A DNA stretch of 54,249 nt, from NCBI GenBank assembly GCA_014381825.1, contig JACNKX010000054.1:1-54249 (forward strand), in the 5' to 3' direction. Numbering within the stretch: position 1 is the first letter of the stretch; each line of letters begins with the position of its first letter. The notes below the pieces were generated by a model, which was not told where the DNA came from, made no database searches, and was given only the letters and a program-made list of their open reading frames with translations. Source of the DNA: Planctomycetota bacterium (GTDB lineage: Bacteria; Planctomycetota; Planctomycetia; Pirellulales; Pirellulaceae). This document shows positions 6,701-52,185 of the stretch, one piece after another. A program made the translations under genes and the position numbers.

Positions 6701-6761
6701 TTCTGCCTGCAACTCGCGTTGGCCGATAACCGTTGTGTCGACTAACCATTATAGTAATTTG

Positions 6762-7795: not shown

Positions 7796-7862
7796 TGGCC
7801 ACACGCACCAATTGCATGCATCATCGCCTGCGGCGAACCTCCGCCAAGTCTTAGTTGCGTAC

Positions 7863-8765: not shown

Positions 8766-9078
8766 GATTTCCTGCAGGGCGCTTGTGATGCTCGAAGAGT
8801 GTTGATTGCGGCAGTTCGGAACGCACATTGTCACTTCGACTCATTGAAGATCAACAGCATTTTCTGCACGAAAGTTCTAAAAGCCGCAAGATCGAACGGG
8901 CGGAACGAAGCCTGCGGACAAGAGTTCGTCAATAATCGTCTTGCACTCGACAGACGCGCCGCATTGGCCAAAAACCGTTGACTCGACACCCCCCGTCGCC
9001 TCGGCTACGATCTAGTGTGATGCGGTTCAACGGTGGGATTTCTGAGTAGGCGCTGCCACGCGGCAGACGAACGACGCG
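8766..9078. other. Intergenic region between divergent genes
   Basis: About 310 bases between the dioxygenase and SGNH hydrolase starts. Part of it (8766-8834) may be the N-terminus of the dioxygenase if the upstream GTG is used. The remainder should carry two divergent promoters; I see no clear consensus boxes, repeats or RNA gene in it. Confidence 0.3.
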
Positions 9079-10335: not shown

Positions 10336-10581
10336 CGAAATCACCTCGGGATCCGACGACGATATCGGCACACAAGTTCTCCGACGAACCTCTGGCAACC
10401 GATATGTTCTCAGCTTCTACAGACCCTCGGATATCTGGCACGCTGATTGGGAATTGCACGTAAGGACACATCGGTCGCTGCACGGCATTTGAAGGCTTGA
10501 GATGGCTATCAAGAATGATTTGCAATTTTAGAGTAAACTCATAATTCACTCACGCCCCGCATCCCGCCCAAGGAGTTCTGC

Positions 10582-23489: not shown

Positions 23490-23752
23490 CCGTCGGCTTC
23501 CTTGCCAATCGCTGGAGAGTCCGCCTGCGCTCATTGAATGTGAGCGAAGAATCAGGTGCTAGCACAGTAAAGTTACGCGTTAGCAACGTGCGCTGTTGTC
23601 TTGTTTCGGTTGTGCGGGTTACGAAAGTTGAACGGGTTGTGCGGATTTGCCCGGCAAATTCGGCTGGAGCGTTGCCATTCGTCGTAAGCTGTGACCTAGA
23701 CTTTCAGCACCGGTCAGGAATAAAGAGCTTATTGTGGAGAGGGGTTTGGGCG

Positions 23753-34934: not shown

Positions 34935-37900
34935 CTATTGAGGAATCGTCCGGAGAGTGTAATGAGCTTCCGCAGGAAAGAACTCGCGATCTTCCGGTGC
35001 GAGGTTCTTGACATGCAACTCATACACATAGCCAGCCCGCAGGTCATCGAACGTCAGGTCGACGCGCAGTCCATCGTCGGAGACTCGCACACCTGAAACC
35101 TGCTCTTGTCGACGATCATGATCGCCTCCACCATAGGCGGGTGTCGACACGCGAGTGTACGACGAGACAGAATAGCTGTCGGTTCGCGAAGCTTTAGCGC
35201 GATCGACTGGAGAGGTGAAGTCCACTACAAAGCCGTTTGCCGTTGCCCGCACTTCTGCGATGCCACAAGGGAGTTGATCGAACTGCGGGCGAAGCCTAAC
35301 AATCTCTCCGATGTTGTTTGCGCCGCCCCAGCCACTGTCGCGAATGCCGCCAACGTAAAGATCGCCCTGTGGCGAGACCGCACACACCAGTGGGCCTAAC
35401 AGTGGAGGGCCGTTGCGCGGTGCATCGTAGCTAAATGGATAAGCTGCACCTTGATAGGTGCCGCCGACTTTGTGAAGACTCATGCGAATGAGCCGGCGCG
35501 TGTCGTACTCGCAGCCGACGAGTTGGCCTTCGAATGGCCCGAAGGCGGGCTCCGCAGTATCCGGCGAGTCAAGAAAGCAAATCCCGTTAACGCTCCTCGT
35601 CCAAGGATGAGGGATGTTGATTGTTGGCGGAGTTAGTGGTGGCTGAAAGTCTGGCTTGCGATCGATCGCGTTGATGAAACCAAAACGCTTACCGGTTACG
35701 ACGTGATTGAGTTCGTTGAACGGATTGTAATTGCCCTGGTTATCGGTCACAAACATTTCGCCGTTGCGATTGCGTGCGATCCCCATTGGGAAGCGGTGAC
35801 CGGCCGTCAATTCGGTAATCGAGAAGAGGCTCGGGTCCGTCGACGTCGGCTCGCGCGGTGAAAGGCGAAGTACCGAGCCTTTGTACTTCGCGGCGGCGGC
35901 GTTTCGTTTGTCTTGCTGGCACGGCAACGCTACGTAGTAGTTACCCTCTTCGTCACGTGGCAGGCCAACGACCCAATCGTGATAGTCAGTCGTATGCCCC
36001 CAACCAGAAGCAATCGTAACCATTCGGTTCGGATGCAAACGGAGCAATCCGTATTTATTCACGACGTCAACGTGATCGTCGTACGCCGCAATGCCGTAGG
36101 GTGCCGCCAATTCGTCCGAGATCGCAGCCGCAGTGTCTTCGATTCCGTCTGCATTCGTATCACGCAGATTCCAGACACGACCTTTCAACGAAGCAACAAC
36201 TAAATCTCCATCCGGTCGCCAATCCAGCGCCGTCGGCATGATCTCGCTACTGATTGGCAGCCGAACGGTCTCGAATCCTGGGACGACGTCGAGCGTTAGC
36301 GGCGGCGGTGCCGGCGCTTCGGGTACGACCGTCGGAAACACATCGATCGGGACGCGCGGTCGATATGAAAGTGTGAAGGTGGCTCGTCCCGCATTGTCCG
36401 CTGGTCGAGTTACGCTGAAGTCATCTTCGATCGTCGCCCCAAGGTACATCTCTATGGAGCCAAATCGTGTCTGGAGCTGTGTTCCGTCAGACTTCGTCTT
36501 GAGCTCGGTGGCTGAGGACAGCAATTGCAATTTCACCGCCATCGAAGCCGGTATGCCAACGACATCAATGCGGCGCGACACGGCACCCGTATCGTAAGAC
36601 TCGACTCTGAAAATCTGTGTCACCGAGACCGTCGTGGGTGACGAGCCGCCAAATCGGAGTCGATATCGAAAGCCAACGCCTCGTTCGTCTGTATGAAACA
36701 CTTCGTCGAACTCAGTAACGAATTGGCCGACAGTGTCCGGCGCCAACTCGCTCATCGCGTCAACAAGGGTGAGCTCACAGTCCGTCAGCGCGGGCTTGAG
36801 CAGCGGAGTGCCAGCGACCGCCCAGAACCAGGACTTGCCTTCTGTTCGCTCGTGGGCAACGTTGCCCACGGACCATCGAGCCAAGGAAGCTGTTTCGAGA
36901 TCGATCAGGAAGCTGGTGCGATTTGGCAGGCCGATCAGGAGCGGCTTTAGATAGATCTTCTGCGCGTCGCGAACAACGTCCGTGATGACGACCGATCGCT
37001 CTTCCCTTTCGGCCAGTCCAGATCGGCGCACCGTGCGAACTGGGTTCGGGAGCGGTGGTTCAAAATCAGGAGTATTCAACACGTCCCAGACCGCAGCGAG
37101 TTGCGTGTCGAGATGATCATCGAGTACGCCACTCACCGCCACTTGAACCGACGGCATTTCCATGCGAGGAATGACCCGCAGGGGGTTACGTACGAATCGT
37201 TCGAACCATTCGCGACGTATTCGTTTCGCTAACAGCGTTAGTTGCGGGCCGCGTGCATTGAGCGGCGCTTTGGTGGGCTTCACCGTTCCAAGTTGATGGC
37301 AACTCGTACAACCAAACCCGTCCGTTGTCACGAGCCGACTGCCGACTGCATGCAGAACGAGCGGGTCGGTTTCCGGCGGAGCCTGCTGGTCGGTGCGAGG
37401 CGGGATACGATCTGATTGCACAAAGTAATCGACGAGCGTTTGGAGTTCTTCTTCCGAGAGGTTGAACTTTGGCATCCGCACGTGAAGGTAATCGCGATGT
37501 ACTGACTTTCGAAGAATCGCATCGCGAATCGATTGGTCGTACAGTTTATCACCCAGGCTAATTAACGGCGGTGGAGTCATCGATGGTAACAGTTCGGCAA
37601 CCTCCGGATGTGCCTCGGCAACTTTTGGCAGCTTCGCCGCGAGACCTGGCAAATCGTTGCGTAAGTGGCACGCCAAGCAATTGTGTTTTGCGAGAAGGTC
37701 GGAAGCACTGACTCGAGGCGCAGCGTCCGGATGCTTTCGTGTTTCCGCAACGAACTGAGCCACGGCGTGACGGTCGTCGCCCGTCAGCTGAAATCCTGGA
37801 TGCATCGCGTTGGGTTGCCGGACGCAGCTGTCATCCCAATTGATCACTTCCGCAAATGCTCTCCGCGGATTGCGTTGTTCGTTCTCGGCACGGTCGTGGC

Positions 37901-39050
37901 ACGATGCACACTGATGTTTTTCAAATAGTGTTCGTCCGAGCGAGATCTGTTTCTCAGTCGTTGGACGCGGCTCTGCTCGTTGAGGCGTCACGCCTCGCGT
38001 GGATAAGTGTGCCGAGAGATCTCGACGTTCGTCTTTCGAAAGCTCGAAGAGTGGCATGCGATGTTGTGGATTGAGTTCTTGTGGCGCGGCGAGCCAATGT
38101 GCGAAGAAACTTCGCGGTCGTTTCGAGGCAATCGCGGCCAAGTCGCCACCACCAAATTGACCGGAGGTACCGACGTCTCCGAGTTGATGGCACGCGAGAC
38201 AGCCCGTCGTTAACAGTAGCAGCTTCCCCCTGCCGAGGTCCGGCTTTTTCTTATCGACGGGCCTTCTTTTGACTGGCTTGGATTGGTCGAATAAATAGGC
38301 GGCGATTGCGTCGGCGTCCGACTCCGACAGCGAGAAGTGAGGCATCTGCCGCTGAACACCATCTTGTTGCTTAGGCGTCACTGCCAGCCAACTCACCAGC
38401 CAGTCAAAATGCATATTGTCGGCGACGTGCGCGAGCGACGGGGCGGTTGCAGGTCGCGACTCGCCGGGAACGTGGTGGCACGCAGCACAGCGCAGCGCCC
38501 GCACAATTGACCCGCCGCGGCTGAAACTTGTGTCTGGCGTTTTAGTTGGATCGTGATAGAGATACCGTGAACCGATCGGTTCCAACTGGAACTGCGGCCC
38601 GGACCAAAAGAGCCGAATTCCTCCCTCGGAATCTTTTCGATCGTAGGTTACTTCCAGCGGATGAAAGTCGAACTGTAACGGAATGGGTGCCGAGACCGAC
38701 CATTTGGACGTGTCGCTTTCGCTTTTGAGAACCGTTGTTCCATTGAGCTGGATTCGTACATTACCGGCTGCGTAGACATGTAGCCGGTAGTCACCAACTG
38801 CCTGAGACATGAGAAAGCCGGTCCAGTGGACTCGAAGCGAAATGCCATCGAGGCGACGATCAATAGAACTGGTGCCGGGCGCGATTGAGACGGCGGCGTC
38901 ACGTCGCGATAGGGAGTTCCCCTGCGGATCAGAATAATTACCGATCAAACCGCTGCGGAACTCGTCGTCTTCGATCTGAGCAAGCAGAGTTGTTGGCCAA
39001 CCAAGGATCGATAGTACCAATAGGACGATATAACAACGAAAAAATCTCAT
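34935..39050 (-). CDS. Giant exported PA14 / five-haem cytochrome c / propeller protein
   Basis: A 1371-residue exported protein. Signal peptide 1-24 (ending LLA). Residues 32-165 form a PA14-like domain (YRLHVYAAGNVRIQLNGT). Then come five CXXCH haem sites: CAACH near 188, CLACH near 284, CASCH near 381, CLACH near 458 and CTSCH near 580, several with a downstream Met in xRMPxF or RQMPHF as probable second ligand, so these are repeated cytochrome c domains. Residues 650-900 are beta-rich; residues 920-1290 resemble the sorbosone-dehydrogenase-type propeller of PVC membrane-bound dehydrogenases (ALDWRPDGDLVVASLKGRVW). It probably oxidises a sugar-like substrate in the periplasm and passes electrons along the haems; substrate unknown. 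Confidence 0.92.
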   Translation of the reverse strand: MRFFRCYIVLLVLSILGWPTTLLAQIEDDEFRSGLIGNYSDPQGNSLSRRDAAVSIAPGTSSIDRRLDGISLRVHWTGFLMSQAVGDYRLHVYAAGNVRIQLNGTTVLKSESDTSKWSVSAPIPLQFDFHPLEVTYDRKDSEGGIRLFWSGPQFQLEPIGSRYLYHDPTKTPDTSFSRGGSIVRALRCAACHHVPGESRPATAPSLAHVADNMHFDWLVSWLAVTPKQQDGVQRQMPHFSLSESDADAIAAYLFDQSKPVKRRPVDKKKPDLGRGKLLLLTTGCLACHQLGDVGTSGQFGGGDLAAIASKRPRSFFAHWLAAPQELNPQHRMPLFELSKDERRDLSAHLSTRGVTPQRAEPRPTTEKQISLGRTLFEKHQCASCHDRAENEQRNPRRAFAEVINWDDSCVRQPNAMHPGFQLTGDDRHAVAQFVAETRKHPDAAPRVSASDLLAKHNCLACHLRNDLPGLAAKLPKVAEAHPEVAELLPSMTPPPLISLGDKLYDQSIRDAILRKSVHRDYLHVRMPKFNLSEEELQTLVDYFVQSDRIPPRTDQQAPPETDPLVLHAVGSRLVTTDGFGCTSCHQLGTVKPTKAPLNARGPQLTLLAKRIRREWFERFVRNPLRVIPRMEMPSVQVAVSGVLDDHLDTQLAAVWDVLNTPDFEPPLPNPVRTVRRSGLAEREERSVVITDVVRDAQKIYLKPLLIGLPNRTSFLIDLETASLARWSVGNVAHERTEGKSWFWAVAGTPLLKPALTDCELTLVDAMSELAPDTVGQFVTEFDEVFHTDERGVGFRYRLRFGGSSPTTVSVTQIFRVESYDTGAVSRRIDVVGIPASMAVKLQLLSSATELKTKSDGTQLQTRFGSIEMYLGATIEDDFSVTRPADNAGRATFTLSYRPRVPIDVFPTVVPEAPAPPPLTLDVVPGFETVRLPISSEIMPTALDWRPDGDLVVASLKGRVWNLRDTNADGIEDTAAAISDELAAPYGIAAYDDHVDVVNKYGLLRLHPNRMVTIASGWGHTTDYHDWVVGLPRDEEGNYYVALPCQQDKRNAAAAKYKGSVLRLSPREPTSTDPSLFSITELTAGHRFPMGIARNRNGEMFVTDNQGNYNPFNELNHVVTGKRFGFINAIDRKPDFQPPLTPPTINIPHPWTRSVNGICFLDSPDTAEPAFGPFEGQLVGCEYDTRRLIRMSLHKVGGTYQGAAYPFSYDAPRNGPPLLGPLVCAVSPQGDLYVGGIRDSGWGGANNIGEIVRLRPQFDQLPCGIAEVRATANGFVVDFTSPVDRAKASRTDSYSVSSYTRVSTPAYGGGDHDRRQEQVSGVRVSDDGLRVDLTFDDLRAGYVYELHVKNLAPEDREFFPAEAHYTLRTIPQ

Positions 39051-39544: not shown

Positions 39545-41440
39545 CTACGCACGCCTGATGAAATCTGACGCGTAGCTTCGTACATGTTTGCCGTTTAGCA
39601 CGTGTACCATGCGGAGTTGTTGGACCGTTGATTCGCCAAACTGACCGAGCGGAATATGAACCCATTTCTTTTTGAATCGTTTTGCCAACCGTCGCCAACC
39701 TGCGCCAGGTGGAGCGGGGCTGAGCAACGCGATGTCCAAACATTGGCTATGCAGACATGCGGCCGCGAGGACACGTTCCTCCATCGTTTCGGTGAAGTCC
39801 AATCGCGGGTCGATCCAAATATCGACGATCGGCTTCGGAGGATATAGAAACAGAGCGCCGCCATAATTCCCGAGCCCGATCCCCGGGCCGACTAGTTCTT
39901 TGCTGAAGTCGGTCGCGAAAAAGGCGAGTGTCGATTCGTCTTCATGTTCCGCGAACCAGGTTGTCCGCCAAGGATAGTCTCGTGGATCGGCTGGGCTGTC
40001 GAACAGCATCACGGCGCAATCGAGCTTCCCACGACTCGGCGGCAGGACCTTGACGTAGATGTCGCCATCGTACCAATGACGCAAAGTGTCACGAATGTCG
40101 ATGCCGTCCTTAATGCTGGTCGTGAATTTCTCTGTATGCACGAGATCAGCACCCATCACGTCCTTGGCACGATCAAAGACGTGCGAGCGAAAGTTTTCGA
40201 TCAGCTTATCTTCGGGAGGATAACTGCATTGAGAGTGCGGATTCCATCGCATCTTCCAGCGATCCACGTCTTGTCGGTCGGGTCGAGGCTGCAACTCGCA
40301 GCTGCGCCAGATCAACGGTGGGCCTGGAAGCCGGCTAACGGCATCAAGCAGATCACCTTCGGGAAGTCGCACTCGCTCTAAGCCCACGTCCAGGTAGGGC
40401 AAACCGGTTGCTCTCGCATAGGGATAGTCTCGCGCTGTCTCGGCCACATGCAACGCGTACTGATCGCCGACGATCTGTTTCGCGGCGATCACAAGCGTGT
40501 ACAGGTCCGGTGTCAGCCGCCGTTCAATCAGCGACAGATTGCGAATGTACTTCATGCATTGCGCAAGGATCTGTGGAGTAATGTTGCGTGCACGTCGCTT
40601 TAACTCGTCGCAGTAAGCATCCCGCGATGAGAGCAACAGTTCTTTAACGCCATCAATCGACAGATTCTCGTCGTCGTCCAAGTCGGCTCGCGCCTTTTCG
40701 TACAATCCGGTGATGAACGGCAATTCACCCAGCATGAATACCAGCGTGTCGTTCTCGACTTCGTAGGTTTCTGTTGAGGGGACGTACGCATCGCTGGCAT
40801 CCGACGCTCGTTGCTCGATATACGCTTCGCGAATCCAGGGCCAATCAAGGACAGAGCACACAAACAGGATCGATTCATGACGCGACTCCAAGTCGCGAAG
40901 TTTCGCTGCCATGTGGGAATTGCGTTCCTGCCGCTGTTCCAAGCTGGGCCTAGCGAGCGTTGGCAGAACCGCCGCCGCGAATCGTTCGATGGAAACTTTC
41001 TTTAGCGCATAGGGATCGGGAAGCGGCTCGCTGTAGGGAACAAATGGCGAGGTCTCCAAATCGATGAACTGACGGGCAACGCGTTCTCCCATCGCGACGC
41101 GCAGCGCCATGATCACTCCCTGGCACGGATCGATCGGAACATAGCTGCAGTCACCTTCGGACTCGTCTTCATCACGTTGATCGGGAGTCCATTCCGTTTG
41201 ATAGCCGGCGCTTTCTCGTTGTAAGACGACCGTCGGCGTTGGGAGTAAGCCGATTGCTTCCTCGACGTCTTCTTGAAACGAGGGTGGTAGAGGAACGGCG
41301 ACGCAGTCAAACGAGTGCTCAAGCATCATTCGACGGACCTCGAGAGCAAAGTCACCGCTGCCGTGAATAATTGGCAGCGCCGTGATGCGAGGTCCGAACT
41401 TGAGAACGTCGAGGGTCATAAGAGAGAGGCCGGAGGTCAA
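39545..41440 (-). CDS. Large protein of unknown function paired with MoxR ATPase
   Basis: A 631-residue soluble protein without a signal peptide or membrane segment. The N-terminus (LPIIHGSGDFALEVRRMMLE, then FDCVAVPLPPSFQEDVEEAI) resembles the start of TraB/ChaN-like or DUF5682-type proteins, in which a similar strand-helix opens the domain, but I cannot confirm this. The middle is helical, and the C-terminal part has a beta-rich segment with many Trp and Pro (RDYPWRTTWFAEHEDES). It begins 11 bases after the MoxR-type gene, so they form an operon and probably a complex: MoxR ATPases typically remodel such partners. Function unknown. Confidence 0.8.
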   Translation of the reverse strand: MTSGLSLMTLDVLKFGPRITALPIIHGSGDFALEVRRMMLEHSFDCVAVPLPPSFQEDVEEAIGLLPTPTVVLQRESAGYQTEWTPDQRDEDESEGDCSYVPIDPCQGVIMALRVAMGERVARQFIDLETSPFVPYSEPLPDPYALKKVSIERFAAAVLPTLARPSLEQRQERNSHMAAKLRDLESRHESILFVCSVLDWPWIREAYIEQRASDASDAYVPSTETYEVENDTLVFMLGELPFITGLYEKARADLDDDENLSIDGVKELLLSSRDAYCDELKRRARNITPQILAQCMKYIRNLSLIERRLTPDLYTLVIAAKQIVGDQYALHVAETARDYPYARATGLPYLDVGLERVRLPEGDLLDAVSRLPGPPLIWRSCELQPRPDRQDVDRWKMRWNPHSQCSYPPEDKLIENFRSHVFDRAKDVMGADLVHTEKFTTSIKDGIDIRDTLRHWYDGDIYVKVLPPSRGKLDCAVMLFDSPADPRDYPWRTTWFAEHEDESTLAFFATDFSKELVGPGIGLGNYGGALFLYPPKPIVDIWIDPRLDFTETMEERVLAAACLHSQCLDIALLSPAPPGAGWRRLAKRFKKKWVHIPLGQFGESTVQQLRMVHVLNGKHVRSYASDFIRRA

Positions 41441-41451
41441 AATCCATCACT

Positions 41452-42414
41452 TTAAAACAGCAGTTCATCATCGTCGTCTTCGTCTTCCAGGTCGGGGTGC
41501 AACGGATCGTCCGCTGCAAAGAAAAAGTCGCCTAATCCCAACGGCACCGCGTCGCCTCCGAGCGTGCGACTGCGACGTTGTGCCAACGATTCGAGGTCTA
41601 GTGCGTCTTCTCCAAGACACTTCTCCAACGCTTCTCGCCATGCTTGATCCTTGGCAATCGGATGCGACGAGTCCTGCGCCAATCGCTTCATCGCGTATCG
41701 CAACAGATTGATTCCATCACGCGGCGAGAAATCCAACTTCAATTCGTGGGATCGCTGTAAGAACTCGACCGTAATCGCCAACATCTCTGGCTCGACGAAG
41801 GGCAGGTGGTACTGCAGAATCGCCAGTTCGTCTTGCTTGTTGGGATAGCCAACACTCAATGTTGGCTGCAGGCGACTCATGATGTAATCGGGGATCTCGT
41901 AAGTCGACTCGTCTTGATTCATCGTCACGGCGCAACGAAAGTCGCGATGAGCCTTGATCGTGATGCCAGCGACAATCGATTCGACGTAACGTCGGTAGTC
42001 GAGCAGCGGAGCCAAGCTGGCCCACGACTTCTCGTTCATTCGATTCCCTTCATCGAGAACACAGACGCCGCCGCGAATCATCGCTGTCACCAAAGCCGAA
42101 GCGTGATAGGCAATCTTGCCGTTCTGCGCCAGCACCGGCGTGACAAGTAAATCCTCTGGACGCGTATCCGCCGTGCACTGATAGATATACAGCTCTTGCT
42201 CACGTTGTTGCGCAGCCGCCATCGCCAGCGCGGTCTTGCCGATTCCCGGCGAGCCGACCAGACGCGGCGAGAGCGCAAGGTCAGCGTCGTCGACGACGAT
42301 CCAGCAAGCCTGGAGTTGCTGCAGTATCTCGCGTTGCCCGATCCATTTGGCTTCATTCTCGTTTGGTGTACTCAACGTAAGTTGAACGCCATCTACGTCG
42401 ACGTGCTTCTGCAT
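41452..42414 (-). CDS. MoxR-type AAA+ ATPase
   Basis: A 320-residue AAA+ ATPase. Walker A is [15 protein letters not shown] (residues 54-68), Walker B is [13 protein letters not shown] near 113-125, followed by a sensor-1 region ([20 protein letters not shown]) and a C-terminal helical lid ([20 protein letters not shown]). The N-residue in place of a second acidic residue (DEGNR) matches the MoxR type. The last 30 residues are acidic ([11 protein letters not shown]). These ATPases act as chaperones for metal insertion or complex assembly, usually with a VWA protein; none is adjacent here, and the 631-residue gene takes that place. It diverges from the aldolase gene. Confidence 0.93.
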
Positions 42415-43630: not shown

Positions 43631-43646
43631 GTGCGATCTATCGCAC
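43631..43646. terminator. Hairpin between convergent genes
   Basis: GTGCGAT and ATCGCAC form a perfect seven-base inverted repeat around a two-base centre, 18 bases after the aldolase stop. It overlaps the last codons and the stop of the opposite-strand decahaem gene. Without a T-run, it is judged a bidirectional terminator by position. Confidence 0.4.
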
Positions 43647-45773
43647 GTGATAAGCGTGGCACGTGAGACAGCTATCTCGACCTGAAGAGTCACCGTGGCA
43701 TTTGGCGCATGCGGCCTGCGTCATGGGAACAAAGTCGCTTTCGAAAGCATGCGGGTTCGTGGCGGGGCGCCAGTGGCGGTCGATGAATTCGGTTTTAAGA
43801 AGAGATGTTGCCGCTGTTTGAGTCTCGTTGAATGAATGGCATTGCGAGCAGGCATCGTCGCTCAGCAAAGTTACATGAGGCGCGTGGTTGAAGTGTGTAA
43901 ACGAGTGCTGGTCTAGCGGCGGTTCGTAAGGACGCCAATTGACATTTGCAGCCGCTTTTTCATCGTGATCGACGCTGTGACATTTCGTGCAACGTCCAGC
44001 GGCAAAGGGCGACCCTACCTGATCAAACAAATCGTTAAGCGCGCTTTGCAACAGTGTAGGATTGGGATCGTTGTTCACGCCGCGCGCACCGATATCTAAC
44101 AACGCTCTGAGCAATCGATCGGCGTGGCCGAGCGGTCGGTATCGCAGCGAGAGGCTCGAACCGTGGACGTGCCACCCACTGGCAAGAAGCTCGGATTCGT
44201 GTCGCTCGGTTCGTATGAGGAGAGCGGCGTCAGTCGGAGGAACTTCATTTGGTACCTCCACGTCGAGTTGCTTACGTCGGGATTCTACTTCTGTCACTAA
44301 AGCGGGTAACCACTGCTCTTGCATATCGATCGCCAAAAGAAGCGGATATGAATTGGCGAGTGTTTCGATCTGCGACTCGGAAACATGTTCTCCGAGAACC
44401 GTTGCGAGTCGGCGGTGAATCTCTGGATGCCCCTTTTGCACAATGTCATACAGTGATTCCTTTAACAACCATACCAGTGACTCGACCGATTGCAGTTGGG
44501 GCGTATCCGCTTCGCGCAGGTCGCGCAAATCGACGCCCGACAGCGAGGCTTCGACGGCGGCGTATTCGTCATACGATTGAAGCAGCAACCTTTGAAGTGG
44601 TGAGATCTCAGCGGTTGCCTCTACGTGCAACGGATACTCACGAGGCCACTGGCCGATCTTCCGACCGTTTTTTGCAAGTGCATCAACGTCCAACGCCGGC
44701 AACGAAATCACAGCGATACCTTGCGTCGTGTCATCTTGGATTTGATGGGAATGACATTCTGCGCATGTTGTCTCAAATTCCTTGACCAGCATATAACGTC
44801 CAGCCGAATCGGCTTGATGGCAGTCATTGCACTTTCGGTTCCCTTTCGTTCCCGCGGCTTCAAAGTGTTCACCAATGTGAGACAAATGATCGAAATACAA
44901 TCTTGTCCGACGCTCGTAGGGGTAGGCCGTAAACTCTGGATGTCCCTCGCTAAAGCTGTGAAAGGAATCCACATGACAGACCTGACACTGTTGGTTCGTG
45001 AATTCGGTCAAGTCCGCCATCGTGCCACGGTGCTCTCGATGGCAGGTGGCGCACGCTAGTTGTTGATCCGTTCGCAAGGCCCGCGCGATACCGCCGTCTA
45101 ATCCGTGACGTGTAGCGCGCCGTTGAGGAAGCTCAGGTAGACCGTCGCCGATCGTACCGACCATCTCGTTAACGACCGTTTGCATGCCAGGTTCAATGCG
45201 CGGCTGGCTATGCGGGTTCATTGCGCTCGCGCCGAGTTCCGCGTGACACTGCAAACACTGGCCGCTCTGGGTGTGAGCTACCTCGCGATCCAATGACGCT
45301 TGAACCCAAGCGGTCGGCCCACCTGCGGCGGCAGTGTGACACCCCTCACAACGATCAACGACTTGACTGTGTTGCGATGTCAACGGACCGGGAGATATGA
45401 GGTTCGGTCGACTTGGCGATCCGAGGATCAGTAAGCCTGACGCAATCGCCGCCGCAAAGGCCGTAAACGACAAAACGCCGCGTCGCGATAACGCGCTCCG
45501 CTTAGGTTCGCATCTCTGAATTTGCTTACAACATGTACCGTCGGGCAGCGGGCCTTCGTCGCACGTGCCGCCATGAGTTTTGGTGCGCGCACAGACCCAA
45601 GTGTCGCCTTTCTGATAGGGCGAGCATTCGTGTGCCGAACGACAGAGTCCCCACTTGGTAGGTCCTAGCGGGCACGCGTGGCCTTCGGCAGCCCAACCGC
45701 ACTGCCACGGTTGATTGGGTCGTGCGTAGTCGTTCTCGTCGAAGCTGGATGCATGGGAGGGGCCGTCGCTCAC
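43638..45773 (-). CDS. Decahaem cytochrome c with Cys-rich N-terminal region
   Basis: About 711 residues. Residues 17-92 carry nine Cys (C-x8-C-x9-C-x5-C-x10-C-x9-C-x9-CC-x5-C), before a basic stretch and one membrane helix (about 98-118). The rest is periplasmic and holds ten CXXCH sites: CEGCH, CLQCH, CATCH, CQVCH, CNDCH, CAECH, then a haem-free helical region of about 250 residues, then CTKCH, CSQCH, CAKCH and CLTCH. The cytoplasmic Cys cluster could bind Fe-S or zinc; this is inference. The GTG start at 45773 overlaps the stop of the upstream membrane-cytochrome gene (GTGA), so the two are made together and probably form one complex. Electron partner unknown. Confidence 0.92.
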   Translation of the reverse strand: MSDGPSHASSFDENDYARPNQPWQCGWAAEGHACPLGPTKWGLCRSAHECSPYQKGDTWVCARTKTHGGTCDEGPLPDGTCCKQIQRCEPKRSALSRRGVLSFTAFAAAIASGLLILGSPSRPNLISPGPLTSQHSQVVDRCEGCHTAAAGGPTAWVQASLDREVAHTQSGQCLQCHAELGASAMNPHSQPRIEPGMQTVVNEMVGTIGDGLPELPQRRATRHGLDGGIARALRTDQQLACATCHREHRGTMADLTEFTNQQCQVCHVDSFHSFSEGHPEFTAYPYERRTRLYFDHLSHIGEHFEAAGTKGNRKCNDCHQADSAGRYMLVKEFETTCAECHSHQIQDDTTQGIAVISLPALDVDALAKNGRKIGQWPREYPLHVEATAEISPLQRLLLQSYDEYAAVEASLSGVDLRDLREADTPQLQSVESLVWLLKESLYDIVQKGHPEIHRRLATVLGEHVSESQIETLANSYPLLLAIDMQEQWLPALVTEVESRRKQLDVEVPNEVPPTDAALLIRTERHESELLASGWHVHGSSLSLRYRPLGHADRLLRALLDIGARGVNNDPNPTLLQSALNDLFDQVGSPFAAGRCTKCHSVDHDEKAAANVNWRPYEPPLDQHSFTHFNHAPHVTLLSDDACSQCHSFNETQTAATSLLKTEFIDRHWRPATNPHAFESDFVPMTQAACAKCHGDSSGRDSCLTCHAYHVR

Positions 45774-46594
45774 GAAATACCTCCCGAGTATGCGGACACA
45801 AGTAACAGGTGGAGTATCGCGAAAACGAGCAATGCGTACGTCAACGGTACGTGTACGAACAGCCAATACTTGAGCGTCGCTTGCAACGAGAACTGATAGT
45901 CAAGATCATCCTTCGCTTCAACGCACGTAACCAACCTCGCCATCGTCTCGCGTTCTGCGTCGTTCAAGTAGCGACGATATGCTTGCATCTCGTTCAGCAG
46001 GCCGAAGCGGGAACGGTTCGATTGCACGAGATGCTGCCAGAAGTTACGGGTCTGTGCGAAGAAAGGCCGAAGTCGATCTGCGTAGAACTGTGCGACAGCA
46101 GTCGATGCAGCCTCGTCCAACTCCTCAAAGACAATCGTCTCGACTTCAGCTTGAAGTCGATTGCGATAGACCGGAATGCGTTCGAATAGCACTTCGTCGC
46201 CCCGGGTCGTTAAGCGTTTGGCCAACGAACGCGATAAGAATAAGCCGATTACTCCGCTTGCGAACACGAACAGATAGAGCGTCGCCAACAACGATTCGAC
46301 AAGCCCGTTGGGAATCCGCCAGCCGACGTGAACGCCGAATACGACTGCGGTCAACAGCCCGACGTAGATGTGAAATTGCAACCAGGTTGCCGACGCTCCG
46401 AGAGGCAGGAAAGGTAACTTCTTTCGCAAGTTGTAGGCGGCCAGAAAGCAGATCATCGAGAAGAGAATCCAGCCTGTCTGACGCGCGGTGTCTCGCAGTG
46501 CCGTCGTCATTGCACCGCTGAGCCAGACCAGCAGTAGCGCAGCAACGATCGCAATTCCTGAATTGCGAAATCGTCGAGCGGTAAGTGTTTTCAT
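45770..46594 (-). CDS. b-type-cytochrome-like integral membrane protein
   Basis: A 274-residue protein with about five membrane helices: near residues 11-30, 40-58, 70-92, 100-120 and 245-268. Candidate haem-ligating His lie in helices: QFHIYVGLLTAVVFGVHVGW (two, spaced 14) and WLFVHVPLTYALLVFAILHL (two, spaced 14), the spacing of a di-haem b-type cytochrome or ferric-reductase-like core. A soluble helical loop of about 110 residues stands between helices four and five. It starts 27 bases after the Fe-S/cyclic-nucleotide gene and its stop overlaps the decahaem start, so it likely carries electrons through the membrane. The family is not certain. Confidence 0.85.
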   Translation of the reverse strand: MKTLTARRFRNSGIAIVAALLLVWLSGAMTTALRDTARQTGWILFSMICFLAAYNLRKKLPFLPLGASATWLQFHIYVGLLTAVVFGVHVGWRIPNGLVESLLATLYLFVFASGVIGLFLSRSLAKRLTTRGDEVLFERIPVYRNRLQAEVETIVFEELDEAASTAVAQFYADRLRPFFAQTRNFWQHLVQSNRSRFGLLNEMQAYRRYLNDAERETMARLVTCVEAKDDLDYQFSLQATLKYWLFVHVPLTYALLVFAILHLLLVSAYSGGIS

Positions 46595-46621
46595 TCCGGC
46601 TGGCTTCGGCTGTTATTCGAG

Positions 46622-48343
46622 TTATCTAGTGTACCAGTCGGTCAACTGTTGGACGGCGCGCATATCCATTCGAATGAGTGCATCATGAGGACACGCTCGT
46701 TGGCAGGCCGGGCCGCCAAGCTGGTCCGAACATAAATCGCATTTCGTGGCCTTCGCGATGGGGGCGTGCTTCCTATCATCTCGAATAAAATCGCCGTCCT
46801 CATGCCGCACGTCGACCATTCGAATGGCGTTGTACAAACAATTGTTCGCACACGCACTACAGCCAATGCAAGTCTCGTCGTTAATGACGACTTGGCCGCC
46901 CTCCATTTGCCGATGAATGGCACCAGTGGGACACTCAATCATGCATACGGGATCTTCGCAATGGAGACATGCGTTCGCAACCATGATGTTATTCTGGATG
47001 GGACCTTGTCGAAGGAACCGAGGATTGTTGTCGTGCGTACTGGCACAGGCACGAACACAGTCGTCGCAACGAGTACAGCGATCCATATCGATCAACATCG
47101 TCGCCGTGCCGTTGATGTAGCGGTTCTCGACCAGAAACTCGACAAAGTCCGAGTTGATTCGCGTCGCGTCGATTTTCGGTTGGTTGGCCAACGGATCGGT
47201 CGTCTTCGCCTTGTTTCGCGCCAAGCTTCGCCGACCGGTCGTTTCGAGGAGCAGCCTTTCGATCAGATGAGTTGGAATTGTCACGACATTAGCAATTCCG
47301 ATCGCCCGCAGCGAATGTGTGAGCGGCTTTGGAGTCTTGCCGAGCCAACCATCAATGATTTCATCGAGTCCGAATATTTGACCGGGCGTCAAGTAACCGG
47401 TCGTCTGGTGGCCGTGCTCATGACGGCGACTAAGTCGCGCCAGTCCGCTGCGAACAATGATAACTCCATTTGTGTGATTCCCTTCCTCGGCGATCAACGG
47501 CTCGTGCTGCAAATCGGTGTCGATGCCTTTTTTTGCAAGTCGCTTGAAACTGCCAGCCCAATCGTATTGGCCGTGCGTTTCGAACTTTGCTCCTTCGGTT
47601 AACTCGGTGATTTCGGTTGTGCCAAGATGTTGAAAGATCGGCGTATTCATTAAAAACAACTTGAGCGCTCGTTCGCGAAAAACGGCGTCGATGTGCTGTT
47701 GTAGAGCATCATCACGCCGCATTAAATCTCGCAAACCCTGCCAACGTATCTCCAATAGTTCGGTGGAACGCTCGGCAAAGACGGTCGCGGATCGGGGCGT
47801 TCGTCCTAATGCTGCACTCTCACCAAAGAACTGTCCCGCTTCAATAGTCGCCGTCTGATACTTGTCGAGCACGGTCGAAACATCTTGCAAATAGATACGC
47901 GTCTGCTCACCGGTTCCTCGAGTTCCAATCCGCGGATCGCCTCGATAGGCCGCGATTTCGCGAACTTCGGGATCAGATGAATTTCGCCACAACTGCGCGA
48001 TGCTTTCAAAGAGGCTCTTCCGATGGACAGGTTGGCGCCCCAGTATCTCGCTCGGCAAACTCGCCGCCGAACCGAGTTCGACGCGTACATTGCCAGCCAC
48101 CACCAAGAAGGCCGAGTTACCCCAATCGCCTTGTCGTACGACAATATCACCGGGCTGACATCGCACGAGTCGCGTGTCGTTCTTGAGAATGCCGGGGAGC
48201 GTGACTTTGCCTCGAAACCGCGTCGCATCGAGAGAGGCAAACGGTTCGATCGTCAATAATCGATCAACGTCGGCGTCCGTCATCTCAGTAGAAAACGGAA
48301 CGGCCCATCGCTCAGGTCGTTGAATCGATTCAAACGTCGGCAT
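46622..48343 (-). CDS. Cyclic-nucleotide-binding and four-cluster ferredoxin fusion protein
   Basis: A 573-residue cytoplasmic protein. Residues about 25-215 and 240-370 are two cyclic-nucleotide-binding-like domains (GDIVVRQGDWGNSAFLVVAG, and GQFFGESAALGRTPRSATVF, which keeps the GESAxL and RxAT core; then VIIVRSGLARLSRR). Residues 415-560 are a polyferredoxin with four Cys quartets: CTRCDDCVRAC, CLHCEDPVCMIEC, CIGCSACANNC, and CDLC-x8-CQRAC, matching the NrfC/DmsB-type 4x[4Fe-4S] subunits. It could be a nucleotide-gated electron carrier feeding the membrane cytochrome. The first domain has an insertion of about 70 residues. It precedes the cytochrome genes. Confidence 0.92.
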   Translation of the reverse strand: MPTFESIQRPERWAVPFSTEMTDADVDRLLTIEPFASLDATRFRGKVTLPGILKNDTRLVRCQPGDIVVRQGDWGNSAFLVVAGNVRVELGSAASLPSEILGRQPVHRKSLFESIAQLWRNSSDPEVREIAAYRGDPRIGTRGTGEQTRIYLQDVSTVLDKYQTATIEAGQFFGESAALGRTPRSATVFAERSTELLEIRWQGLRDLMRRDDALQQHIDAVFRERALKLFLMNTPIFQHLGTTEITELTEGAKFETHGQYDWAGSFKRLAKKGIDTDLQHEPLIAEEGNHTNGVIIVRSGLARLSRRHEHGHQTTGYLTPGQIFGLDEIIDGWLGKTPKPLTHSLRAIGIANVVTIPTHLIERLLLETTGRRSLARNKAKTTDPLANQPKIDATRINSDFVEFLVENRYINGTATMLIDMDRCTRCDDCVRACASTHDNNPRFLRQGPIQNNIMVANACLHCEDPVCMIECPTGAIHRQMEGGQVVINDETCIGCSACANNCLYNAIRMVDVRHEDGDFIRDDRKHAPIAKATKCDLCSDQLGGPACQRACPHDALIRMDMRAVQQLTDWYTR

Positions 48344-48363
48344 TGCGTCCCTTGGCGTAGGCG

Positions 48364-48438
48364 GTAGGCCCGAACAAGCTTCGCAGTTCCGGCAGATCTC
48401 AAGCGAATGCCGGAACTGCGAAGCTTGTTCCGGCTTAC
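48364..48438. repeat. Long dyad-symmetric repeat element (REP-like)
   Basis: Two inverted arms, 48372-48394 and 48408-48430, are perfect complements over 23 bases around a 13-base loop; pairing continues outward for seven more bases to 48364 and 48438 after one mismatch, with one G-T. There is no T-run on either strand. It lies between the tetrahaem and the Fe-S genes. It resembles the mobile palindromic elements scattered in planctomycete genomes; no other copy is seen in this window. Confidence 0.75.
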
Positions 48439-48461
48439 GTTCTGAAGTCTCACGAGTTCAG

Positions 48462-49622
48462 CTACGGTTGGTAAGCGCCTTCAAACGGTCCTTCCGGAAT
48501 CAGATCCAAGTCATCGACTTCTTCGAGTTGATTTCCGTTTCGAGCGGCGAACTGTCTCGCCGCCTTACCGACCGTCGCGGCGGCCTCTAAGTAAAGCTTC
48601 TGGTCGTTAGGGTCGAATCCGTCGTCGTCAAGCTTTTCAACGACCGTCTCGACGGCTTCGGTTGCTTCGGTCACTTCAGCAATCTTGGTCTCTTCAAGCT
48701 CCTCCAAAAGATCCTCCGCCAACAGTCCCCAAGCGTCTTCGATTCGCTCGACCATCAGATCAGAAAAATCGCTTTCATCGGTCGCGGTCGCGAGGCTGCG
48801 GAGGCTCGTTTCGAGATCGATCAGCTGTCCCAAGACGAACAGAACGCGTTTTCTGCCAGCCGCGTTTCGCCCTGCTTCGTGATGTAATGGGTCCGTCCAA
48901 AGTGTCGCGACTTCTGCATTACCGTGTCGGTCGAGGAAGAAGTTGTGGCGGACTTCGCCAAGCGCCTTCGTTACAAATTCGAAGCCGTCGCCATGATCGT
49001 GGCCAGCTTCGGCCAACGCTTCGTTACGGACCACATGACAGTCAAAACATCGCTTGACGAGTTGATAGGCGTTTGCCGAGCGGAACTGTCCCGCCGTCTC
49101 GCAGGTTGCGGTCCGTTGAGCGTAATGCTCGGCGGATTCTGCTTCGCGCCGTGTTCCGCGTGGTCCATAGACGGCGTGCGCGTTCAGCCAACCATCATCA
49201 CCACCCGAAGCATTGTGACATGCTTCACATGACACACCGCCCAGAATACGCAATCGTCCAACTTCATCACGCTGCTGAGTCGCATGGCACGTCGTGCAAA
49301 GCGAGTTGCGGGCGATGTCCGTGGGGCGAATGCCAAGTTTCTTTGCATACTCCAAAGAAGTCGGCGCGGTTCGCAAGAGATCAAACGCTCGCGTTGCATG
49401 TTTCGACGCTTGCCACGCTTTAATTTCCTGGGCATGGCAATCGACACACTTGGCATGTCCTTCGATGCGAGATGGATCGACGATCGCTGCGGGAACCGTC
49501 TCTGCGGGCGTGGCAATATCCTGAGCGCGCGCCCACTGCTGCCACCCGCCAACGCAAATCCCTGTCAGCACCAACAGCGCCGCAGATCTAGCTAAAACTG
49601 AGGTCCGAGAAGCAGATGACAA
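48462..49622 (-). CDS. Tetrahaem cytochrome c (c554-like), copy 2
   Basis: About 386 residues. Four CXXCH sites: CVDCH, CTTCH, CEACH and CFDCH, in the order and spacing of cytochrome c554-family proteins, with the conserved HATRAFDLL, GHDHGDGFEFV and GEVRHNFFLD segments that can provide distal His ligands. The C-terminal 150 residues are helical and haem-free. The signal sequence is right after a TTG start at 49622, which has AAAGGA eight bases upstream; the longer frame to 49727 overlaps the upstream cytochrome gene. It shares gene order and motifs with its neighbour, from which it differs mostly in the tail, so the two are tandem paralogues. It is an electron carrier of unknown partner. Confidence 0.9.
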   Translation of the reverse strand: MSSASRTSVLARSAALLVLTGICVGGWQQWARAQDIATPAETVPAAIVDPSRIEGHAKCVDCHAQEIKAWQASKHATRAFDLLRTAPTSLEYAKKLGIRPTDIARNSLCTTCHATQQRDEVGRLRILGGVSCEACHNASGGDDGWLNAHAVYGPRGTRREAESAEHYAQRTATCETAGQFRSANAYQLVKRCFDCHVVRNEALAEAGHDHGDGFEFVTKALGEVRHNFFLDRHGNAEVATLWTDPLHHEAGRNAAGRKRVLFVLGQLIDLETSLRSLATATDESDFSDLMVERIEDAWGLLAEDLLEELEETKIAEVTEATEAVETVVEKLDDDGFDPNDQKLYLEAAATVGKAARQFAARNGNQLEEVDDLDLIPEGPFEGAYQP

Positions 49623-49659
49623 GATGACAATCCTTTCTATTCTTGTTTCTCTAACGCAA

Positions 49660-50787
49660 TTACGGCTTGAACGGTTCACCCTTCGCCTTGCTTGGAATCT
49701 TGATCGATTCCGGCAGTTTAGTGCCATCTTGATGGGCTGTCACAAAACTCTTTGCACCAGCGGCCACGGCGTCCGCGGCTTTCGTGTACGTCGCTTGATC
49801 ACCGGGCGTCGCCTCTTTCAGGGACTTTTTGTCGATACTGGCGATGGCTGCGAGGATTGGTTCTAACTCTGCGATACCATGGTCAGCGAGTTCCTCTTGC
49901 ATGTCGAGAATGCGATCGTTCACTTCATCGCCGAGCGAACCTCGCTTCGTCTCAGAGACCTTGGCTCGCGTACGAAGGCTGACTTCGAGATCGGCGAGTT
50001 GTCCCGCGACGAACATTAGCCGCTTCCTTCCCTCGGGTGTGGCGCCTTGATTGCGGTCTGTCCAGTTCGTCGGGGCTTCGGCGTTTGCTTTCGCGTCGAG
50101 AAGAAAATTGTGCCGCACTTCCCCTTGGGCCCATTCGACAAACTCGAATCGAGTGCTCATTGGATGCCCTGCTTCGACGAGTTTCTCATTCGGGACGAGG
50201 TGGCATTGCAGGCAGTTGCTGGCGATCTCAAACGCATCCGCCGAGCGATTCATGCCAGCTTTCTTGACGGCGGCATCGCGTGCCGCGCGGTGGGCGGGCG
50301 TTTCCTTCGTGCGATCGGCAAGGAACTCGTCGATCTTGCTCTTGCTCGTCGGACGACGACCGGAACCAAAGTCGAAGTGCGTGAACAACCAGCCACCTTT
50401 CCCGCCCGCTCCGCCGTGACAGGACTCGCAGGAATTCCCTTCGGCGATGATCATCTTGTCGGCCTTCTTTTGTTGCGTGCCGTGGCATTGCGTGCATAGC
50501 GACGCGCCTTTGATATCGGTCACGCCAAGTGCCTTCGCGAATCCTGCCGCCTTGGGATGGTCCAGCAAGCTCCAGGCCTTCTTGTTGTGAGAGGAGTGTT
50601 CCCAAGCGGTCGCCTCCGACGCGTGACACACTTGGCAGGCTTGGCGGCCGAAGACTTTCTCTGGAGCAACGGTTTGCTGTGCAGATGCCGGATCTGGCGA
50701 GCCAAGCAGTGCGATCGAAGCCAGAAGCAGGGCAATCTTCCAACTACCGAATACATGAACGAACGGCGAAGTGATTCCATAACTCAT
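49660..50787 (-). CDS. Tetrahaem cytochrome c (c554-like), copy 1
   Basis: A 375-residue periplasmic protein with a signal peptide (cleaved near PASAQQ, residue 36). Four CXXCH sites: CQVCH, CTQCH, CESCH and CLQCH; the middle segment GNSCESCHGGAGGKGGW and later AGHPMSTRFEFVEWAQGEVR match the c554 family. The C-terminal 130 residues are helical without haem. GGGAG lies eight bases before the ATG. It follows the flavin reductase gene by 87 bases and precedes its paralogue by 37 bases. Two cytochromes of this type side by side suggest division of labour in one electron route. No hydroxylamine oxidoreductase gene is near. Confidence 0.92.
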   Translation of the reverse strand: MSYGITSPFVHVFGSWKIALLLASIALLGSPDPASAQQTVAPEKVFGRQACQVCHASEATAWEHSSHNKKAWSLLDHPKAAGFAKALGVTDIKGASLCTQCHGTQQKKADKMIIAEGNSCESCHGGAGGKGGWLFTHFDFGSGRRPTSKSKIDEFLADRTKETPAHRAARDAAVKKAGMNRSADAFEIASNCLQCHLVPNEKLVEAGHPMSTRFEFVEWAQGEVRHNFLLDAKANAEAPTNWTDRNQGATPEGRKRLMFVAGQLADLEVSLRTRAKVSETKRGSLGDEVNDRILDMQEELADHGIAELEPILAAIASIDKKSLKEATPGDQATYTKAADAVAAGAKSFVTAHQDGTKLPESIKIPSKAKGEPFKP

Positions 50788-50874
50788 ATGGCAAACTCCC
50801 GGTTGAAAGTCAGATTTGACAACTGCTGAATTGTTAAATGCTTCGCGAACGCCGTAGATTCTAGTTGACTCGTG

Positions 50875-52185
50875 CTACGCATCAAGAACGACATTTCCAT
50901 CAGGTGCGGCGATGCAGGTGAGACAAGTTCCTTCTTCTAACGCGGCCCCGTGTTCCGTCACATAACGGACCTTGCCAGATTTCACGGCGACGACACATGT
51001 TCCGCAATTTCCGGCTCGGCAGCCCGAATCGATCTTCACGCCGTTCGCCTCGGCAAAATTAAGTAGATTTCCTGCCTTCGAATTCCAGCCGCAAGATTTC
51101 CCAGATTTTGCAAACGTGATGCTTGTATCGCTGTCGCTGCCAACTTTGAGCGAAAGCGATCCTGCCTCTTGTGGTTTCGTGAATGCCTTGCTGACGGTCG
51201 CTGGGCCAAATGCTTCGGTGTTGATGTCTTGTTTCGCGACACCCCACTTCAGGAGCTGCTTGTTTAGCGTCTCCATCATGGCGGGCGGGCCACAAATATA
51301 GAACTGATAGTTCGTCGATTGCAGGTAGCTTTTAATCAAATCAACATCGACTCGACCCGTGTGATGATAATCGCGTCCTTCATGCTGTTCGTCGTCGGAA
51401 GTCGGTTTGCTGTACGCAACGACATGTCGAATGTTTGCGTGGTGCTCGAGTACTCGTTCCAGCGATTCCTTAAATGCATGTTCGGCTCCGTTTCTCACAC
51501 CATAGAAAAACAGCACTTCACGACCGGATCGTGTCGCAACGATGCTGTTGATCATACTTAGCAACGGTGTCACTCCGACCCCTCCCGCGATCAACACCGC
51601 GGGCCGTTCCTGTTCGGGCGCTAGAAAAAAGTGGCCGCGAGGAGCCTGGACATCGAGTATGTCCTTTTCGGCAAGTTGTTCGTGGAAATAATTCGATACC
51701 AGACCGGGCGGCGCGGCTGGTGCGTCGGGCGGCGAGCCAACCCGTTTGATCGTAACGCGATATTGATCAGGATGTGGACTGTCCGACAGCGAATAGCAAC
51801 GAACCACCGGTTTCTCGCGACCGGGGATATTGAGCCGAAACGTCAGGTATTGTCCGGGTTTGAATGTCGGGAGTGGCTTCCGATCATGCGCGACGAGGTA
51901 GAACGAGCAGATTCCGTCCGCTTCCATTTCCTTTCGATCGACCACGAATTTCCGGTAGCCGTTCCACGCGAGTGCGTTTTCGGCGCGACGGTTCTTCGCC
52001 TCCGAAATTCGCTCCTTCATCGCTTCGAGCGTCAATCGCTCTCGCTCTCGCTGGAAAATCGCGCGTTGCCAAGCGGAGACGGTCAGCACACCTAGACGGG
52101 CGGCAACCAGTCCGGCGGTAACAAGTCCGATCGGTAGGATTAACGAATCTACCACAGAACGATTCTCATGCCGTGATTTAGACAA
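50875..52185 (-). CDS. Membrane-anchored FAD/NAD(P)H reductase with C-terminal 2Fe-2S domain
   Basis: A 436-residue oxidoreductase. One N-terminal membrane helix (about residues 14-35), then a helical linker, an FAD-binding barrel (FKPGQYLTFRL, VVRCYSLSDSPH at 150-161, flavohaemoglobin-like), an NAD(P)-binding domain (LIAGGVGVTPLLSMINSIVA, near 213; FYICGPPAMMETL), and a plant-type [2Fe-2S] ferredoxin domain with Cys in GCRAGNCGTC and a distal GTCLTC. The domain order FAD-NAD-2Fe-2S differs from NqrF. It takes electrons from NAD(P)H on the cytoplasmic side and passes them, by inference, to the membrane-bound carriers encoded just downstream. It is first of the six redox genes on the minus strand. 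Confidence 0.93.
   Translation of the reverse strand: MSKSRHENRSVVDSLILPIGLVTAGLVAARLGVLTVSAWQRAIFQRERERLTLEAMKERISEAKNRRAENALAWNGYRKFVVDRKEMEADGICSFYLVAHDRKPLPTFKPGQYLTFRLNIPGREKPVVRCYSLSDSPHPDQYRVTIKRVGSPPDAPAAPPGLVSNYFHEQLAEKDILDVQAPRGHFFLAPEQERPAVLIAGGVGVTPLLSMINSIVATRSGREVLFFYGVRNGAEHAFKESLERVLEHHANIRHVVAYSKPTSDDEQHEGRDYHHTGRVDVDLIKSYLQSTNYQFYICGPPAMMETLNKQLLKWGVAKQDINTEAFGPATVSKAFTKPQEAGSLSLKVGSDSDTSITFAKSGKSCGWNSKAGNLLNFAEANGVKIDSGCRAGNCGTCVVAVKSGKVRYVTEHGAALEEGTCLTCIAAPDGNVVLDA

Follow-up and report, generated by a model that had tools for sequence, protein, structure and literature searches.

The 54,249-nucleotide contig JACNKX010000054.1 of a Pirellulaceae genome (Planctomycetota bacterium, assembly GCA_014381825.1), hereafter the window, carries six redox genes that we call R, C1, C2, F, B and D. 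On the best reading they form the inner-membrane half of a split porin-cytochrome system of the PCC4 type, a gene set that has a name and an unproven function. The window is the entire contig C172 of the 9.7-Mb genome, and a pentahaem cytochrome (P) and a predicted outer-membrane barrel (O), which complete the set, are encoded on another contig, C45. An initial annotation, made from the letters alone, had suggested that the six genes may be an undescribed electron-transfer chain. The combination has been described and the set is not self-contained, whereas the annotation's gene classes, the crossing of the membrane and the idea of nucleotide control are supported.

All six genes lie on the minus strand, running from 52185 to 43638, and an open reading frame (ORF) check together with Pfam confirms the place, the single strand and the gene classes first described. 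The eighteen CXXCH sites counted by the initial annotation are found as well (4 in C1, 4 in C2 and 10 in D). Both flanking genes are on the plus strand; the one past D is of the dihydrodipicolinate-synthase family, and the one next to R encodes a Ser/Thr kinase. The features are listed below, with lengths in amino acids (aa); cNMP stands for cyclic nucleotide and FAD for flavin adenine dinucleotide.

50875..52185, minus strand: R, NAD(P)H:FAD:2Fe-2S reductase with a membrane anchor, approximately 426-436 aa, its start being uncertain (Pfam PF00970, PF00175 and PF00111)
49660..50787, minus strand: C1, tetrahaem cytochrome of the c554 type (PF13435; 4 CXXCH invariant)
48462..49727, minus strand: C2, second tetrahaem cytochrome, listed ATG probably too early (PF13435, alignment)
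46622..48343, minus strand: F, 573 aa, ferredoxin domain with four [4Fe-4S] clusters joined to two cNMP-binding domains (Pfam)
47783..47827, minus strand: phosphate-binding cassette in the first cNMP domain of F, residues 173-187, FGE...PRSAT (alignment, pattern count)
46676..47098, minus strand: ferredoxin domain of F, residues 416-556 (Pfam, alignment)
45770..46594, minus strand: B, membrane protein of five helices carrying SGXXG and a pair of WX3HX13H motifs (44-sequence alignment; model)
43638..45773, minus strand: D, decahaem cytochrome, 711 aa, GTG start (sequence; 10 CXXCH invariant in 17 sequences)
45498..45731, minus strand: predicted cytoplasmic domain of D, two four-Cys modules (eight Cys invariant in 17 sequences)
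45770..45773, minus strand: GTGA overlap of the B stop and the D start, as first annotated (sequence)

A proposed split PCC4-type locus

The main text of He, Barco, Emerson & Roden 2017 (PMC5566968) names a putative PCC4, as a guess from gene order, which consists of a porin, cytochromes with 4, 5 and 10 haems, and an inner-membrane protein. According to that text the inner-membrane protein has five helices, with SGXXG on helix 4 and WX3HX13H on helices 3 and 5, and Planctomycetes are among the listed hosts. In PCC4 Subgroup II an Fe-S gene (pfam13247) is located upstream of the inner-membrane gene, and redox genes are found upstream of the tetrahaem gene.

The genes of the window correspond to Subgroup II in most respects. 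B carries W71-H75-H89, S113-G114-G117 and W244-H248-H262, and the Fe-S gene directly upstream of it is F, which matches PF13247 with 31.2 bits against a cut-off of 26.2. The haem numbers agree (four in C1 and C2, ten in D, five in P on contig C45), R is the redox gene upstream of the tetrahaem gene, and in the genome the porin candidate O lies beside the pentahaem gene (locus L166). Two differences are seen. The tetrahaem gene is duplicated in the window, and P and O lie apart from the rest of the set, which is why we call the locus a split variant of PCC4. The nearest stand-in for the published IMG entries is a Mariprofundus metagenome-assembled genome (MAG, L088), whose F is 49% identical. 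A new, unnamed complex was therefore dropped as a candidate because of this match; the complex matched is a described one, and not one of known function. The main text of the PCC4 paper contains none of the terms 'cyclic nucleotide', 'ferredoxin', 'cyclase', 'cNMP', 'cAMP' and 'FAD', and in the part of the open-licence PMC literature covered the name turned up in a single further paper, which mentions it in passing.

Several other known systems share part of this architecture. MtrCAB, MtoAB and PioAB are likewise haem relays from the inner to the outer membrane with a porin, but in the MtrCAB type the decahaem cytochrome sits inside a porin of >20 strands, whereas the O genes pair with the pentahaem gene. 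Further, D has a membrane anchor and a domain predicted to be cytoplasmic, and the inner-membrane part is F-B-D instead of a CymA-type quinol oxidase. The D profile gives a weak match (E 8e-6) to chain 6r2q_A, labelled cystathionine beta-synthase in the structure table, which we take to be MtrA. The C-terminal 16-Cys domain of F matches the DmsB, FdnH, HydN and NrfC families below their cut-offs, and F differs from these by its two fused cNMP domains and by the absence of a signal peptide, judged by eye.

A Pfam and NCBIfam scan of the six genes and three neighbours found no molybdopterin or other catalytic subunit and no RnfC/D/E or NqrB-E membrane subunits. This separates the cluster from formate dehydrogenase and DMSO reductase on one side and from Rnf and Nqr on the other, and the same scan led us to reject an anaerobic reductase operon that merely lacks its catalytic subunit. 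Verrucomicrobial porin-multihaem clusters, proposed for extracellular transfer (He et al. 2017 mSphere, PMC5615132), also combine a porin with multihaem cytochromes. Identity with them was ruled out, as their periplasmic cytochromes have eight haems; their porins have >=20 transmembrane motifs, and no F, B or D is described in the passages of that paper considered here.

Conservation of the core and of the P-O pair

Gene order was compared in the own genome and 59 relatives, using a threshold of E <= 1e-20 for F-type matches, and in named genomes, where a pattern scan gave at least 549 relatives and the best 80 loci were counted. F-type matches are present in 26 of the 60 genomes. A full-length-type F occurs in 18 of the 59 relatives, that of G036 being a fragment at a contig end. 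In the 18 relatives' loci with F, B follows in all 18, D in all 18 and R is upstream in 11; D was found in 17 by script, and the D of L056 was added from the alignment. L066, which has no F above the threshold, is not among the 18. Among the 80 named loci B comes next after F in 77 and D in 73, and every miss is less than 1.6 kb from a contig end. R is upstream in 61 and a same-strand tetrahaem-type gene in 39.

The R-C-F-B-D order is conserved across phyla, and since it is, a chance association of the six genes is excluded. The initial annotation had named a lack of conserved order in related genomes as what would speak against it, and on this test it stands. In the window's genus G002 carries all six genes in order, while the only F match of G001 (93% complete) is short and divergent. 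By record title the hosts of the best 80 loci are mainly Planctomycetota and Verrucomicrobiota, together with Alphaproteobacteria, SAR324, Nitrospinota, the Mariprofundus MAG, Uabimicrobium and a few others. Verrucomicrobiota, SAR324 and Nitrospinota thus extend the host list given in the text of the PCC4 paper. Hwanghaeella grinnelliae and Ferruginivarius sediminum are culturable hosts of the set. Four loci (L087, L094, L102, L121) are titled 'Akkermansia muciniphila' or 'Klebsiella pneumoniae', have clusters that resemble those of other Verrucomicrobia, and are probably misassigned by title. The sequence sets used below comprise 99 sequences of F, 93 of D and 45 of P, of which 97, 91 and 43 are distinct, as some of the relatives' contigs recur among the named loci.

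Many loci add a pair of genes, the pentahaem cytochrome P (A6) and the protein O (A7), with O ORFs of 461-799 aa. In the window's genome P (8430-10517) and O (6742-8355) are both on the minus strand of L166 on contig C45, and in the relatives L049, L050 and L051 they are contiguous with other cluster genes. O is directly downstream of P for 44 of the 45 P genes, and the remaining P is at a contig end. The initial annotation found no terminal reductase or oxidase subunit; an outward or terminal partner is indeed absent from the window, because the PCC4 locus is split over two contigs. A second P-O-like pair, whose P-like protein has six CXXCH, is found on contig C58 of the same genome (L184:6880-10503).

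To measure co-occurrence, a strong F was set at 330 bits and a strong P at 400 bits in the phylum set or 600 bits in the relatives, thresholds chosen after the scores had been seen; in the phylum searches three candidates per genome were scored. A strong P is present in 18 of the 59 relatives, 16 of which also have a full-length-type F, and the own genome has both. The discordant relatives are G019 and G036 (F only) and G017 and G045 (P only), and G014 has two F and two P. In 391 other genomes of the phylum there are 34 with a strong F, 49 with a strong P and 32 with both. Fisher's test gives 1.9e-10 for the 59 relatives and 3.6e-32 for the 391 others, values that overstate independence owing to kinship.

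Components of the proposed electron path

R contains FAD_binding_6, NAD_binding_1 and Fer2 domains according to Pfam, and the closest NCBIfam family of its reductase part is flavohaemoglobin reductase. Its FAD-site residues and four 2Fe-2S cysteines are invariant in 13 sequences. The 2Fe-2S domain is C-terminal; NqrF has this domain at the N-terminus. The R of the nearest relative (L048) begins 10 residues later, which leaves the start uncertain. C1 and C2 both belong to the Pfam family Cytochrome_C554 (PF13435). The four CXXCH of C1-type proteins are invariant in 18 sequences, the family profile matches the c554 structure (E 1.2e-11), and a signal peptide judged by eye suggests that C1 is periplasmic. 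C2 is a paralogue of C1, 39% identical. From its listed ATG it would share 68 bp with C1, and the L048 ORF begins 35 residues later, so the true start is probably downstream.

F has cNMP_binding in three stretches and several Fer4 families including PF13247. The 16-Cys ferredoxin of the initial annotation is borne out: F has 17 cysteines, 16 of which are invariant in four cluster motifs (19 sequences), and the 16-Cys pattern is kept in 97 of 99 F sequences. No signal peptide is seen by eye, so F is predicted to be cytoplasmic. Its first cNMP domain holds the FGE...R cassette with both Glu and Arg, residues that we take to bind the phosphate, and this Arg is likewise kept in 97 of 99 sequences.

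B has no Pfam family above cut-off. In 44 sequences W71, H75, H89, W244, H248, H262, G114 and G117 are invariant and S113 is kept in at least 90%. H188 is also invariant there but not in a more diverse set of 21 sequences, in which H75, H89, H248 and H262 are the only invariant histidines. Five membrane spans were counted by eye. The model is all-helical, with a predicted local distance difference test score (pLDDT) of 92.6 and helices that reach past the membrane span, one of them covering residues 212-273. Foldseek found no similar solved structure for the model (best E 0.43) and a sequence-based structure search gave no match, so the long-helix shape is only a model. If the Arg/Lys-rich loops 59-67 and 122-240 are cytoplasmic, as their composition suggests, H75/H248 and H89/H262 would bind one b haem near each membrane face.

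D belongs to the Cytochrome_C7 / paired CXXCH families of Pfam, and its ten CXXCH are invariant in 17 sequences. Because of the overlap with B, the start is placed at the GTG at 45773 and not at the TTG of the ORF at 45866. A hydrophobic helix precedes the haems in all 93 D sequences. The stretch before this helix consists of two modules, each with four cysteines and a GP motif. This pattern is found in 76 of 93 sequences, with all eight cysteines invariant in the 17-sequence alignment; the other 17 miss it, some with one module and some with three, and L052 has three cysteines only. Arg-rich residues just before the helix suggest that the domain is cytoplasmic, and its cysteines could bind Fe-S or Zn. 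A PDB search gave no match for the domain, the window's copy has no Pfam family, and four Pfam families were each hit by a single member of the 17, with E values no better than 0.012.

We compared the positions of class III cyclase genes with those of F. Of 30 F-type genes, 12 have such a gene at most 10 kb away (expected 0.26), namely 7 of 20 full-length-type genes (expected 0.17; the G036 fragment and the window included) and 5 of 10 divergent ones (expected 0.09). The tail probability is 7.7e-18, which overstates independence as the genomes are related. A home-made cyclase profile matches 20 of the 80 named loci, always within 8 kb of F; it was built from four loci among its own matches (L039, L112, L119, L142). 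Pfam confirmed the cyclase in all six matched loci that were checked (L070, L080, L112, L119, L127, L142) and in six loci of relatives. The cyclase gene of L112, L119 and L142 (two of these loci are titled Gimesia) has P-O on one side and C on the other. A cyclase is found a few kb downstream of D in nine loci (L127, L129, L132, L134, L135, L137, L139, L140, L143), eight of them verrucomicrobial by title; that of L127 is a CHASE2-cyclase (Pfam). The window's genome encodes 6-7 cyclase domains, as two counts differ.

Together these data make nucleotide gating of electron flow through F, first suggested in the initial annotation, plausible. The support comes from the kept phosphate-binding residues and from cyclase genes near related clusters, though not on the window's contig. 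The kept Arg in the first domain of F, the cyclase genes near F-type genes and the eight-Cys domain of D are apparently new here. Term searches of the open-licence PMC literature found no paper that combines cNMP binding with multihaem cytochromes and a ferredoxin.

Direction of flow and alternative readings

From the topology we infer a path NAD(P)H to F, B, D, C and P/O. The data show gene content and order, cofactor residues, the predicted barrel fold of O, the co-occurrence of P/O with F and the cyclase genes near related clusters; the individual transfers, the way the electrons run, the nucleotide switch and the last acceptor are proposals. The initial annotation was right that electrons would pass from the cytoplasm through the membrane to periplasmic haems, a claim that rests on topology. 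R would oxidise cytoplasmic NAD(P)H and hand the electrons to the four-cluster ferredoxin F, which may dock on the cytoplasmic stalk of B and perhaps also on the eight-Cys domain of D. The two putative b haems of B would pass them over the membrane to the ten haems of D, C1 and C2 would shuttle them across the periplasm to P and the barrel O, and these would deliver them to an acceptor at or beyond the outer membrane. A cyclic nucleotide on the first cNMP domain of F would switch the flow. NuoE-NuoF-like fusions are encoded beside divergent F genes where no R was detected (L040:6283-8070, L067:11901-13658), and together with R they suggest NADH as the partner on the cytoplasmic side. RuBisCO gave no match in the window's genome, and two COX1-family oxidase genes are present there; this suits an electron-exporting heterotroph without proving it.

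Taken whole, a split PCC4-type conduit from NAD(P)H to an outer-membrane acceptor, switched by a nucleotide, has in our judgement an even chance of being correct. The more specific form is put forward tentatively, as less likely than not: a class III cyclase, encoded nearby in many hosts, would make the nucleotide that binds F and gates a conduit from NAD(P)H over F, B and D to the surface, and D, a c-type cytochrome, would possess in its eight-Cys domain a novel metal-binding contact site on the cytoplasmic side.

Several observations weigh against the conduit. P and O sit on a different contig from the six genes (C45 against C172), and 17 of the 49 strong-P genomes of the phylum set are without a strong F. 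The F-B-D core occurs without adjoining R or C in six relatives' loci (L058, L060, L061, L063, L064, L065); in five of these more than 9 kb upstream is visible, and R and C are truly not adjacent. In the barrel model described below, O resembles channels narrower than MtrB, and a haem wire through it is not evident. The likeness of P to a pentahaem c552 and to MccA means that P could be an enzyme. As to gating, the second cNMP domain of the window's F is without what we take to be the canonical arginine motif. No cyclase is found within 10 kb of 13 of the 20 full-length-type F genes, nor of F in the six relatives' loci without R, nor anywhere on the window's contig, where the R side of F shows 5.9 kb before the contig end and is occupied by the Ser/Thr kinase gene instead.

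The strongest alternative is an inward conduit, in which Fe(II), Mn(II) or another donor outside the cell would feed O/P and then C, D and B to reduce the quinone pool or NAD+. PCC4 occurs in iron oxidisers and is drawn in the main text of its paper as leading from an extracellular donor to the quinone pool (PMC5566968), and the Mariprofundus MAG L088 carries O-like, R, C, F, B and D genes. Yet quinone reduction needs neither a four-cluster ferredoxin nor an NAD(P)H reductase. RuBisCO, the CO2-fixation route examined, is without a match in the window's genome, and PF00016 is found in 11 of the 34 strong-F genomes, with ten weak matches (44-67 bits, best piece, one family) and one strong (171 bits). 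We consider inward flow improbable, if a real contender.

Somewhat less probable again is that P is a periplasmic reductase of the nitrogen- or sulfur-oxyanion type, fed by F-B-D-C, with O as a diffusion channel for the substrate. The P profile matches the pentahaem c552 5ze8 (E 1.9e-16) and weakly MccA and c554. An O homologue, L125 of Ferruginivarius sediminum, modelled in place of the window genome's own O, is a predicted beta-barrel (pLDDT 79.7) of about 18 long strands by hand count. Its best fold match is MOMP (E 1.8e-13, TM-scores 0.56/0.63), followed by OprD-type and AlgE channels; MOMP and OprD channels have 18 strands. Against an enzyme, P has six invariant histidines beyond those of CXXCH for its five haems, so all haems could be bis-His with no open catalytic site, and its near-universal pairing with O (44/45) is as in porin-cytochrome systems. 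That F-B-D is a self-sufficient redox-sensing or electron-sink module, its link to P/O merely a genomic habit, would fit the six relatives without R or C nearby and the separate contig of P and O, but is very improbable as all six of those genomes encode a strong P (G008, G012, G013, G015, G025, G030).

Through such a system planctomycetes and verrucomicrobia may trade electrons with minerals or humics. For PCC4, the data give a likely cytoplasmic end (NAD(P)H and F), a three-gene core and a testable regulatory idea.

The window's genome also holds a second, divergent set of B-like, decahaem, tetrahaem and pentahaem genes on its contig C1 (L183:2850-8159, about 176.8-182.2 kb). About 12 kb from these genes a divergent 953-aa cNMP-ferredoxin protein is encoded (L039:7277-10138, about 162.3-165.1 kb), with a GAF-cyclase gene nearby (L039:3855-5666). 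In the window itself, the only CXXCH carrier outside the cluster among ORFs of at least 300 aa is a 1371-aa protein (34935-39050), which has five of these sites, a cytochrome c domain and a DUF7133 match below threshold. At 39545-42414 a MoxR-like AAA ATPase gene (41452-42414) adjoins a gene for a 631-aa protein without a Pfam family, and two efflux pump genes of the AcrB/AcrD/AcrF family are located at 20235-23534 and 28001-31363.

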